The notes beneath the pieces were generated by a model that saw only the letters and a list, made by a program, of their open reading frames with translations, did not search any database and had not been told where the DNA came from. Positions 36,235 through 41,314 of a stretch of 51,353 nt of DNA are shown one piece after another. The stretch's first letter is position 1. Every line of letters starts with the position of its first letter. Origin of the DNA: Mycoplasmoidaceae bacterium (GTDB lineage Bacteria; Bacillota_I; Bacilli_A; Mycoplasmatales; Mycoplasmoidaceae); assembly GCA_024427105.1 (NCBI GenBank), contig JAKSVR010000002.1, positions 1-51,353 of the forward strand, written 5' to 3'. A program made the position numbers and the translations under genes.

Positions 36235-36798
36235 ATGAAACTCATCGTAGGGCTTGGTAACGTGGGCAAGCCATATTCAAATTCCCGTCACAATATTGGT
36301 TTCATAGCTATTGATGCAGTCTTGAAAGATTTAGGTCTTCAGATTGAAAACAATAGTTTTGATGGAGATTTCGTTGTTGCTACAATCAATAACGAAAAAG
36401 TAATGTTTATAAAGCCAACTACTTTAATGAACTTATCTGGTAATTGTGTTGGTTCGGTTGCTAAGTTCTATAAAGTTAAACCGCAAGATATTATTGTCAT
36501 TCATGATGATTTAGACTTACCACCGGGTAAATTTAGAATCCGGACATCTGGATCGGCGGGTGGCCACAACGGTATCAAGGATATCATCGCTAAACTGGGG
36601 TCAGATCAATTTGTTAGATTTAAGATTGGGATTGGAAGACCACAACAAGCCACGGTAATCGATTATGTTTTAGGTAAAATAACACCCAATGAAATGAATA
36701 CGATTAAACCTGTTATAGATAAATGTGTAGAATTTGTTAAATTGAGTTTATGTGCACCAATTAATATTGCCATAAGTAAAGTAAATCGAGGAAATTAG
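36235..36798 (+). CDS. pth: Peptidyl-tRNA hydrolase
   Basis: A 187-residue enzyme that frees tRNA from dropped-off peptidyl-tRNA. The N-terminus is MKLIVGLGNVGKPYSNSRHN, with the catalytic His at residue 20; then comes FIKPTTLMNLSG, and VIHDDLDLPPGKFRIRTSG with the conserved Asp, followed by GGHNGIKDI. It heads the run pth-nrdD-nrdG, with nrdD beginning 1 nt after its stop. There is no functional link to nrdD that I know. Confidence 0.96.
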   Translation: MKLIVGLGNVGKPYSNSRHNIGFIAIDAVLKDLGLQIENNSFDGDFVVATINNEKVMFIKPTTLMNLSGNCVGSVAKFYKVKPQDIIVIHDDLDLPPGKFRIRTSGSAGGHNGIKDIIAKLGSDQFVRFKIGIGRPQQATVIDYVLGKITPNEMNTIKPVIDKCVEFVKLSLCAPINIAISKVNRGN

Positions 36799-36799
36799 T

Positions 36800-38743
36800 A
36801 TGAAAGTAATTAAAAGAGATGGACGAGAAGTAAAATTTAATGCTAGCAAGATTCATGATGCAATCATTGCTGCAGCTGTAGCAAACAACATTGCTTTAGC
36901 AGAAGATGATTTACATAAAATCACTGATGAAGTAATTAATTTAATAGAAAAATCTAAAAAAGAAGCTGTTGAAGTAGAAGAAATTCAAGACCTTGTTATT
37001 GATACATTAAAAAAACAAGGTCACACTCAACTAGCCAGAAAGTATTCAGCTTACCGTATTGAACGTAATAAAATACGTGAGCGTGGTAGTCGTTTGATGG
37101 ATACTATCTATAAAATCGGTATTGAAACAGATCGTGATAACGCAAACGTAGGTAATAACTTTTCAGCCAAATTATTACGTATTGCTTCAGAGTCAAACAA
37201 ATGACATATGCTTTTGAAGCATTTGCCAAGAGATATGGCTGCTCACCACGAAGCTGGTGATTACTATATCCATGACTTGGATAGTTACAACCTAACAACT
37301 AACTGTTTACACTTACCAACTAGAAGATTACTACAAACCGGTTTCAATACTGGATATGGAACTATTAATGCTCCAACAACTATCGAAACTGCAGGTGCAA
37401 TCTTATGTATTGCTTTGCAAGCAAGTCAAAACGATATGTTTGGTGGTCAATCTCACCCAAACTTTGATAATGATATTGCTCTTACTATCCCAAACACTAG
37501 AAGAAAAATCATTGCTGATATCAAAGCAACTGGTGGGGATTGAAAGAATGATGAATATGTTGACAAAATATTAAAACGTCGTGTATCCCAAGCAATGCAA
37601 GGAGTTGTCTACAACCTTAACACCCTACACTCTCGTGCAGGTAGTCAAGTTCCATTTAGTTCAATTAACATTGGGATTCCTGAAAATGAAAATGCGGCAT
37701 TGGTTTGCCAATGTTTCCTAGAAGAATATGAAAAAGGGTTGGGTTGTGGTGAACAACCAATCTTCCCCAACATCATCTTTAGAGTTAAAGAAGGTGTTAA
37801 CCGTAATCCTAAAGACCCATATTTCTATTTATTTAAACTAGCTTGTAAAGTTGCAAGTAAAAGAATGAATCCAACGTTCATGAACATTGATGCAACATTC
37901 AATAAAGAATATTATGACAAAGGTATTATTCCAGCAACAATGGGTTGCCGTACATATCTATTACCAGATATTAATGGTAAACCACAAGTAGAAGGACGAG
38001 GTAACATTGCTCCTTGTACTATGAATCTACCAAGATTAGCTATTAAAGCTAATAAGAACATTGAAGTCTTCTTTAAATCATTAGATGAATTATGCGAAGA
38101 AGTTAGATTACAACTAATGCATCGATATGACACTTTGAAGAAACTAAAAGTAAAAGATATGCCATTTGTTTGTGGTGAAGGTTTAATTGTTGGTTCTGAA
38201 GGTTTGGGAAAGAACGATTCAATTGAACCGGTGCTAAAGCATGGTACATGAGGTATTGGTTTTATTGGATTAGCTGAAACATTAAAACTATTAATTGGTA
38301 AGCACCACGGTGAAAGCAAAGATGCACAAGAATTAGGCTACCAAATCGTTAAACGTATCAGAGAAAATTGTGATAAGTTCAAACAAAAATATAAACTAAA
38401 CTTTGCATGTTATGCAACACCAGCTGAAGGATTAAGTGGAAAATTCTTCCCGCTTGATGAAAGAGAATTTGGCCAAATTCCTTGAGTAACTACTAAAGGA
38501 TATTACACAAACTCATTCCATGTTCCGGTAGACTATCCAATCACTGTGGCAGAAAAGCTTGAAATTGAAGCTCCATATCATGAACTATGTAATGGTGGAC
38601 ACATCTCATATGTAGAATTTGATAGCTACCCAACACCAGATGATATCATGCGAGTAGTAATGTATGCTTATTCAAGAACAAACATTAACTACATCGGTAT
38701 TAACTTCCACATTCGATACTGTCTAGATTGTAAATCTAAATAA
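36800..38743 (+). CDS. nrdD: Anaerobic (class III) ribonucleotide reductase, large fragment lacking the glycyl-radical end
   Basis: A 647-residue NrdD that reduces NTPs to dNTPs without oxygen. It has an N-terminal ATP-cone (MKVIKRDGREVKFNASKIHD), the active-site Cys169 (DSYNLTTNC) and thiyl-radical Cys383 (PATMGCRTYLLPD), plus GRGNIAPCTMNLPRLAI and TPAEGLSGKF. The protein ends ...RYCLDCKSK, so only the first CxxC (Cys641, Cys644) of the zinc ribbon is present. The second CxxC and the glycyl-radical loop are missing; they are on the separate 62-aa gene at 39285. Four TGA codons are Trp. Normal full-length NrdD is about 710 aa. Confidence 0.93.
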
Positions 38744-38744
38744 T

Positions 38745-39251
38745 ATGAAAATTAGATTAGCAAGTATTCTAGAATCTAATGCCAATGGTCCGGGACTAAG
38801 AAAAGTATTCTTTTCACAAGGTTGTAGCCACGGATGTCCAGATTGCTTCAACAAGCACACTTGAGACTTTAATGGTGGAGCATGAATTGACATTGATGAA
38901 GAGGTAAAAAAGACAGTTGATGCCTTCTACCTAGCGGGGGTAACATTTAGTGGAGGAGACCCCTTTGATCAGCCAGAAGCATTTGCCTATTTGGCAAAAG
39001 AACTAAAGAAACACAATATTAATATTTGGTCTTATACCGGCTACACCTGGGAACAATTAATCGAATTATCTAAGACCAACGTTCATATCAAAGACATGTT
39101 AAATAATATTGATGTTCTGGTTGATGGACCATTCATTAAAGAACTTAAGGATGATAACATCGAATGAAGAGGATCTAGGAATCAAAGAATCATTCTTGTA
39201 CCCGATTCTCTAAAAGAGAATAAGGTAATAATCAATAAAGAATTTAAATAA
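38745..39251 (+). CDS. nrdG: NrdG, radical-SAM activase of anaerobic ribonucleotide reductase
   Basis: A 168-residue radical-SAM enzyme that uses a 4Fe-4S cluster and S-adenosylmethionine to put the radical on the glycine of NrdD. The cluster motif C-x3-C-x2-C is CSHGCPDC (Cys27, Cys31, Cys34), followed by the SAM-binding FSGGDPF near residue 70. It begins 1 nt after the nrdD stop and lies between the two NrdD fragments. TGA codons encode Trp at several positions. Confidence 0.94.
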
Positions 39252-39254
39252 ACA

Positions 39255-39260
39255 TATAAT
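39255..39260 (+). promoter_or_regulatory. -10 box for the detached NrdD C-terminal gene
   Basis: Perfect TATAAT 24 nt before the ATG at 39285, starting 4 nt after the nrdG stop. GGAG (39270-39273) follows, 11 nt from the start. It suggests the small gene can be transcribed on its own. Confidence 0.55.
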
Positions 39261-39284
39261 AAAACTAACGGAGACTTATATATT

Positions 39285-39473
39285 ATGGGAAAAGTAACTT
39301 ATTTACGTCCAGGCGAAACAAAATGTCCAGTATGTGGTTCAACACATATCTGTGAAATATCTAGAATTACAGGATACTTATCATTTGATGAAAGGTTCTG
39401 TCAATCTAAAGTTGACGAACGAAGTCAACGTGTGGATCACAACGGCGACCACGAAGCCAACTATGTAAAATAA
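39285..39473 (+). CDS. Stand-alone glycyl-radical domain of the anaerobic ribonucleotide reductase
   Basis: A 62-residue protein matching the C-terminal end of class III NrdD. It has the second zinc knuckle CPVCG (Cys14, Cys17) and then the glycyl-radical signature ISRITGYL with Gly30 as the predicted radical site. A tail rich in Asp, Arg and Glu follows (DERSQRVDHNG). NrdD (647 aa) plus this piece gives 709 aa; Gly30 falls 32 residues from the end, as in full-length NrdD. It has its own TATAAT and GGAG and ends in a terminator. It is analogous to GrcA/YfiD, the spare glycyl-radical domain of pyruvate formate-lyase, but here the main enzyme lacks its own copy. Confidence 0.9.
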   Translation: MGKVTYLRPGETKCPVCGSTHICEISRITGYLSFDERFCQSKVDERSQRVDHNGDHEANYVK

Positions 39474-39497
39474 AAAGAGGTTGGACCTCTTTTTTTA
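39472..39497. terminator. Bidirectional terminator after the NrdD fragment gene
   Basis: Ten-base-pair stem AAAAAGAGGT / ACCTCTTTTT with a 3-nt loop and A/T tracts on both sides, shared with the convergent membrane-protein gene. Confidence 0.85.
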
Positions 39498-40687: not shown

Positions 40688-41314
40688 CTATATTTTAGCC
40701 CGTTTTACCTTAGGAAAATTATTGGGGTTCATTCTGCTTTGTTGATGGCAATGACGACATTGGGCGGTATATTCGTTGCGATCACCCACCATTATTTGTG
40801 AATTTATTGGGCGTGGTTTTGTGTGTGCGGAGAATGAAGCACTTGCACCACAATTGGTGCAAACAGCTTTTAATTTAGTAACTTGTTCAGCATACACTAA
40901 TAACTTCATTACTGGCACAAATGGTCTTCCTCACGAGTCCATGTCAAGACCAGCAGCAATAACAATATAGTCATTATTAGCTAAATAATTACATACTTCT
41001 GGTAATTCATCATCAAAAAATTGGGCTTCATCAATTGCTATTACTTGAACATCATCGCTTGCATTATTAACATGATCAATAATTTCTCTAGAGTTTTGCA
41101 CGGCAATTGATTCAATTACTCTGCCATCTCTACTTTTAGCTTTCTTTGGTCCTGATCTGGTATCAGTAATTGGGGTAAATAGTAAATATTTTACTTCGGC
41201 AAATTGCAAAAGATTTACTCTTCTTAACAATTCCTCAGATTTACCTGAGAACATTGGTCCACAGATAACTTCAATTCATCCTTTTTGTGTTCTAAATGCA
41301 TTAATCTTTGCCAT
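40688..41314 (-). CDS. tdk: Thymidine kinase, TK1 type
   Basis: A 208-residue type II thymidine kinase for salvage of thymidine to dTMP. The P-loop is GPMFSGKSEELLRR near residue 20, Walker B is IAIDEAQFFDD near 90, and the zinc-binding cysteines are CTNCG and CRHC near residues 150-185. The start at 41314 has AAAGGAGA upstream. TGA encodes Trp at two places. It is downstream of ychF (11-nt gap). Confidence 0.95.

Follow-up and report, generated by a model that had tools for sequence, protein, structure and literature searches.

A class III ribonucleotide reductase encoded in two genes in mollicutes, with a counterpart in archaea

Ribonucleotide reductases (RNRs) alone make DNA precursors de novo. 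In the class III enzymes of the papers cited here, the catalytic site and the radical glycine are on one chain (papers are given by PMC number, and statements about them refer to the excerpts used). How is such an enzyme built when its NrdD chain stops short of the glycyl-radical loop? The question is raised by a locus in a 51,353-nucleotide stretch of DNA (the window) from a Mycoplasmoidaceae bacterium (assembly GCA_024427105.1, contig JAKSVR010000002.1), where the loop is absent from the NrdD body and sits in a separate gene, and which is filed as a split variant of class III RNR. We suggest, with a probability of roughly 0.86, that the locus encodes a two-gene class III RNR whose 647-residue body and 62-residue radical chain are likely to assemble into one enzyme activated by NrdG. 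The two-gene class III RNR is real and conserved, and it has an archaeal counterpart.

The body and the 62-residue protein (hereafter the small protein) are consecutive parts of one family. The body ends in Y-C641-L-D-C644-K-S-K-stop, three residues past its CxxC, and the small protein has 13 residues ahead of Cys14-x-x-Cys17. Along the Pfam family NRDD (562 positions), the body covers positions 1-516 and the small protein 519-562 with no overlap; along TIGR02487 (581 positions), they cover 2-534 and 535-581. The length of the NCBIfam model PRK09263 is 712. A preliminary description of the window had claimed that NrdD ends at its first zinc-type CxxC (CLDC) without a radical loop and that the small gene encodes the missing part, a CxxC followed by ISRITGYL with Gly30, and both claims are borne out. 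The body scores 533 bits with PF13597 and 79 bits with PF03477 (ATP-cone). Among Pfam matches up to an E-value of 1, the class I/II catalytic domain (PF02867) is absent from the body and Gly_radical (PF01228) is absent from the small protein.

Residues expected to carry the radical chemistry are conserved on both chains. Cys383 of the body is paired with chain residue 420 in alignments to the structure of Prevotella copri NrdD (8p23), and chain residue 715 is the counterpart of Gly30 of the small protein. Allowing for an offset of 4 between the chain (743 residues) and the published protein (739 residues), these would be the radical cysteine (Cys416) and radical glycine (Gly711) of that enzyme (PMC11226230). 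All 41 aligned rows retain Cys383. The fold of the body predicted by AlphaFold2 (AF2) is confident (mean pLDDT of 85.8) and has P. copri NrdD chains as its best PDB matches; stretches below 50 are residues 106-124 and 278-285. Placed approximately, these two stretches of the model appear to correspond to the flap (111-122) and loop 2 (304-311), through which P. copri NrdD contacts its radical domain (PMC11226230). The small protein modelled alone has no confident fold (pLDDT of 53.4). That the small protein is instead a regulator or a partner of NrdG, with the radical located elsewhere, is very unlikely: this reading has no direct support, Gly30 aligns with the radical glycine of P. copri NrdD, all 20 aligned small proteins share R27, T29, G30, and Y31, and no loop motif is present past residue 580, the sole part screened, in any of 59 short bodies (one a cut fragment).

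The split recurs across relatives. The closest named relative of the window is Candidatus Hennigella equi (a metagenome-assembled genome; L003, G001), with identities of 92% for the body, 84% for NrdG, and 97% for the small protein; its genome has a truncated body and the small gene only. Among 320 genomes of its order, 66 have an NRDD match and the identical 66 match a profile of the small protein; in 42 genomes, the latter match is strong (E < 1e-20) and falls within a short open frame. The NrdD body is truncated at the breakpoint seen in the window in 41 genomes, all 41 of which have a stand-alone small gene; genome G243 is counted here after its frames were read, as its family match crosses a stop into the small gene. 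In the remaining 24 NRDD-bearing genomes, matches to the small protein are weak and located in fused NrdD tails or, in G187, in an NrdD whose reading is interrupted by numerous stops. A pattern repeated in 41 other genomes cannot be due to chance.

The position of the break is likewise uniform. A [YF]CxxC motif lies 2-29 residues from the C-terminal end in 42 of 42 distinct truncated bodies examined, and a single CxxC lies 15-16 residues ahead of the glycine in 39 of 39 distinct small proteins, which were chosen by their loop motif. One pair thus stands on each side, as had been claimed for a break inside the zinc ribbon. In a comparison of 121 proteins, the 59 without the loop motif beyond residue 580 have 637-670 amino acids (the cut fragment included), against 696-712 for the 62 that carry it. 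In the closest fused relatives, from Clostridium and mostly of 702-705 amino acids, the stretch between the two CxxC pairs is a short loop that connects the same segments. As the break falls in the zinc-ribbon loop, a zinc site common to two chains is the natural inference, and the site is probably built from both.

A quick tree of 80 bodies requires two changes between split and fused labels. In approximately unbiased (AU) tests on 53 rows, after removal of 27 of the 80 rows (long-branch rows, outgroup copies, and near-copies), a single clade of all split rows is not rejected (P = 0.575). Phage records have no match to the small protein at an E-value of 1e-5, and a plasmid search with the body returned 132 records, every one below 60% identity. 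An IMG/VR contig labelled viral (L025) carries a stand-alone radical-domain gene of the mollicute type that is 84% identical, with no NrdD within its 12 kb. Two other IMG/VR contigs (L027 and L028) have a phage-type nrdD with ∼0.8-0.9 kb between matched parts, resembling an intein or intron.

An assembly error or a decaying gene would be a simple source of such a break, given that the window is draft metagenome sequence and that reduced genomes often hold broken genes. This is nevertheless extremely improbable. The identical break with its extra gene is found in 41 genomes, in agreement with the preliminary description, in some of them the two genes are unlinked, and a sequence resembling a ribosome-binding site precedes the small gene in G243 and G244. 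Furthermore, the small gene is under purifying selection: between the window and Candidatus Hennigella equi, it has 30 nucleotide differences and two amino acid differences, and NG86 estimates of dN/dS are ∼0.05 for nrdD, ∼0.07 for nrdG, and ∼0.07 for the small gene, with synonymous sites near saturation.

Gene order varies among relatives. The body and small gene are on the same contig and strand in 24 of the 41 genomes. The small gene starts no more than 1.6 kb downstream of the body in 17, usually with nrdG between; G244 is one of these, and there, as in G243, the small gene stands directly behind nrdD, ahead of nrdG, and follows an AAGGAG motif. The distance downstream is 1.7-5.6 kb in five further genomes, and in G011 the small gene is upstream. 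In 17 genomes, the two pieces are on different contigs. In one of these, G010, the contigs are 322 and 176 kb long and the genes are at least 30 kb from contig ends, which indicates that they are truly apart.

This variation favors an autonomous subunit and disfavors readthrough. Joining of the body and small protein by readthrough, frameshift, or protein splicing could be entertained because the small gene of G243 is in frame with nrdD with one TAA between, and because inteins occur in archaeal NrdD, as judged from interrupted matches with long open frames. Yet nrdG separates the two genes in the window, 17 genomes have the pieces on different contigs, and the three residues after the CxxC of the body and 13 before that of the small protein leave no room for an intein. 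In G244, the frames of nrdD and the small gene differ, which makes the latter a separately started gene. We consider joining to have next to no probability; intein joining, readthrough, and assembly error were all considered and then rejected.

Several points weigh against a two-chain enzyme as the source of deoxynucleotides in these bacteria. The completeness of these draft genomes is not stated, and absences from them do not count as proof. Genome G005 has the small gene, and its sole NrdD is full length and of another type. Three of the 41 genomes with truncated bodies (G009, G244, and G282) carry a full-length NrdD as well, and among the 42 small-gene genomes a class I/II RNR is present in two; for the other 40, no match to the large subunit of this enzyme (PF02867) was found. 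Mollicutes may also salvage deoxynucleosides, as the thymidine kinase gene near nrdD in the window (table 1) illustrates by its route to dTMP. A point in favor of the enzyme comes from Candidatus M. girerdii, whose NrdD (P0066) belongs to the truncated bodies: one paper, citing Margarita et al. 2022, reports that no gene of this organism is expressed more than nrdD (PMC10557491). This wording was not found in the excerpts used from the main text of the cited study (PMC9239101).

The genomes with two forms of NrdD raise the possibility that the small protein acts as a spare part for a full-length NrdD that is encoded elsewhere and has been cleaved by oxygen. GrcA/YfiD repairs pyruvate formate-lyase (PFL) in this way (PMC8683613), G005, G009, G244, and G282 have the required pair of genes, and a stand-alone NrdD-type radical domain occurs in at least four genomes of the wider phylum, with an intact NrdD also present in three of them. 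We regard this as quite unlikely for the mollicute protein, because the truncated body itself has no radical domain and no full-length NrdD was found in 38 of the 41 genomes with such bodies, nor in G001. The likeness to GrcA that was noted in the preliminary description extends to function alone: the small protein is itself part of NrdD and does not match PF01228, and its partner is a body without a radical domain of its own.

We therefore return to the two-chain enzyme, which the sequences suggest is the likely form of function. Nucleotides would bind to the body, and Cys641/Cys644 together with Cys14/Cys17 would bind one zinc and hold the two chains together. The loop with Gly30 would enter the barrel beside Cys383, NrdG would form the radical on Gly30, and the body alone would be inactive. 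Oxygen cleaves a glycyl-radical chain at the glycine, so replacement of 62 residues would restore the enzyme. We speculate that a chain cut by oxygen may be swapped for a new one and the 647-residue body spared, which makes repair by exchange of the small chain a testable idea. From the behavior of P. copri NrdD, docking of the small chain is predicted to respond to effectors at the ATP-cone: with dATP, the radical domain of that enzyme becomes disordered (PMC11226230), and the equivalent change in the split enzyme would loosen or free the small subunit.

NrdD is also split in archaea, at a different position. In five Methanocalculus/Methanocorpusculaceae loci (L020-L024), a stand-alone protein of ∼120 amino acids ends in the radical loop of NrdD; in those genomes, the NrdD body stops at NRDD position 500-511 and the genes for body and tail are on different contigs. 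We extended this to 120 genomes of the order of Methanocalculus (that of G017), which we take to be Methanomicrobiales. A full-length match to the stand-alone tail (E-value of 1.1e-54 or better) is present in 100 of the 120, with only weak or partial matches in four more, and named matches include Methanoregula, Methanofollis, Methanolacinia, and Methanospirillum. Among the matches listed, bodies that retain a C-terminal part stop at ∼500-516, with a few cut by contig ends, and a second NrdD of 569 amino acids in G326 is the sole match to reach 560. The two genes are ∼1.0 Mb apart on one contig in G408 and ∼2.0 Mb apart along the contig in G358 (∼0.4 Mb if it is circular). All of the body tails read, 17 and a further two, end without a CxxC, which implies that the whole zinc ribbon moved with the radical domain. 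The difference in breakpoint from the mollicute split suggests an independent event. Other NrdDs of the archaeal phylum are mostly fused among the matches listed. Profiles of the mollicute and archaeal small proteins match over 44 columns with a probability of 98.3%.

The two splits thus share an NrdD body without a radical domain and a stand-alone protein that matches the tail of NRDD. They differ in that the archaeal break precedes the whole zinc ribbon, the archaeal tail has extra CxxC pairs and is not beside nrdD in the genomes examined, and a class I/II-type RNR (PF02867) is also present in 21 of 22 checked genomes of the Methanocalculus order. Databases name the archaeal tail variously as oxidoreductase, Spt4-like, hypothetical protein, or anaerobic ribonucleoside-triphosphate reductase, and the first three of these names could be corrected. 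Stand-alone open reading frames (ORFs) on four IMG/VR contigs (L048-L051) resemble the archaeal radical-domain protein. Long in-frame inserts resembling inteins interrupt the NrdD bodies of G014, G015, G018, and many members of the order of G017, with matches to positions 1-60 and 53-511 or 1-263 and 259-510 in open frames of ∼1,200-2,000 amino acids.

Separation of a radical domain is not confined to NrdD. PF01228 is matched in 33 of the 42 mollicute genomes with the small gene, often in two pieces. At least 14 of the 42 have a split PFL, consisting of a body without the radical loop and a separate short PF01228 gene with it (loci L216-L235; G272, G276, G255, G257, G260, G010, G278, G009, G280, G277, G256, G258, G263, and G268). 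These come from 16 genomes whose PFL regions were read, mostly chosen for two-piece matches; the other two, G001 (the closest to the window) and G003, have a fused PFL. Counting eight single full-length PF01228 matches, that of G001 included, a fused PFL is present in at least nine genomes. The tail of the split PFL is sometimes on another contig or, in G255, ∼25 kb away, and only the radical-domain gene was read in G275. Candidatus M. girerdii is reported to have an autonomous glycyl radical cofactor beside PFL (PMC5476646, PMC9239101), described as a "replacement part" (PMC5476646).

In a sample of 245 genomes from the wider phylum, 112 have an NRDD match. Among the matches listed, G001 alone has a body that ends at 516 after a full N-terminal match, and several other bodies end at 538-546 or are partial. 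At least four genomes (G688, G756, G675, and G760; loci L236-L239) encode a stand-alone protein of 90-95 amino acids, without zinc pairs, whose last 33-39 residues match the NrdD radical loop. These residues are identical to the tail of the intact NrdD of the same genome at 30 of 36 positions in G688, 31 of 39 in G675, and 28 of 33 in G760; no NrdD was found in G756. By sequence, these proteins look like NrdD counterparts of GrcA and are candidate spare parts. Two other genomes with a full-length NrdD have a second copy without the loop, a 578-amino acid NrdD-like ORF in one (L240; G656, C1) and a copy whose frame ends just ahead of the loop in the other (L254; G660, C1).

It is tempting to see these cases as instances of one strategy, in which anaerobes make the oxygen-sensitive radical subunit exchangeable. 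Such a strategy would have arisen independently in mollicutes, for NrdD and, in many of the same genomes, for PFL, and in a methanogen order, for NrdD; relatives in the wider phylum would hold a stand-alone NrdD-type domain in reserve next to an intact enzyme. Class III RNR would then consist of two subunits in the lineages with a split, and allosteric control and oxygen repair would both act through docking of the radical subunit. We offer this generalization tentatively, with the odds leaning somewhat against it.

Comparisons with known systems set the split NrdD apart. Relative to fused NrdD (8p23 of P. copri and those of Clostridium, with bodies ∼62-63% identical to that of the window), the ATP-cone, barrel, radical cysteine, four zinc-type cysteines, radical loop, and NrdG are the same, but what is one chain there is here cut in the loop between the CxxC pairs, with the tail as its own gene. 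The family of GrcA is presumably PF01228. GrcA/YfiD of E. coli and Y06I of phage T4 are likewise small stand-alone proteins with a radical glycine (PMC8683613), but they belong to the PFL side and serve a partner that has its own radical domain, whereas the mollicute protein matches NRDD and its body has no such domain. The class II RNR NrdJa/NrdJb is also cut into two required chains; it is B12-dependent, and its second chain serves reduction of the active site rather than the radical (PMC4520616). Split NrdJ is described as the only split RNR found in a nonviral organism (PMC4520616). Consistent with the preliminary description, no account of a split class III RNR was found in the excerpts used from the open-access PMC literature, a scope that excludes most subscription papers and all preprints.

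A natural two-chain RNR would allow the radical subunit to be made, labelled, activated, and exchanged separately, and would open radical installation, transfer to the cysteine, and inhibition by dATP to stepwise study. Only spare parts for PFL have been validated, and those for other glycyl radical enzymes are a speculation (PMC8683613) that the stand-alone NrdD domains make directly testable.

Genes of the locus and its surroundings are listed in table 1. The window was read with genetic code table 4 (TGA = Trp), and in-frame TGA codons number four in nrdD and three in nrdG.

Table 1. Positions of features at and around the split nrdD locus of the window
Feature	Position	Strand	Remarks
ORF, 253 amino acids	34386-35147	+	no Pfam match
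ORF, 255 amino acids	35281-36048	+	no Pfam match
pth	36235-36798	+	PF01195 match
nrdD catalytic body, 647 amino acids	36800-38743	+	ATP-cone and NrdD barrel; thiyl residue predicted at Cys383; Cys641/Cys644 as first zinc-type pair
nrdG, radical-SAM activase, 168 amino acids	38745-39251	+	TIGR02491, 146.7 bits versus cut-off of 126.1
Separate glycyl-radical subunit, 62 amino acids	39285-39473	+	second zinc-type pair Cys14/Cys17, predicted radical Gly30 in ISRITGYL
Terminator-like hairpin with T-run	39472-39494	+	directly 3' of small gene; scores on opposite strand too
ORF, 387 amino acids	39495-40658	-	no Pfam match
Thymidine kinase gene	40688-41314	-	PF00265

Terminator-like sites in the region number six against 1.8 expected, and a promoter scan of the region was uninformative (17 sites versus 17.8 expected). 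The ORF of 387 amino acids is convergent to the small gene and adjoins the hairpin. Upstream of pth, the ORFs of 253 and 255 amino acids form a tandem duplication, with blocks that are 73-94% identical at a spacing of ∼0.9 kb and a similar hairpin-like end on each.
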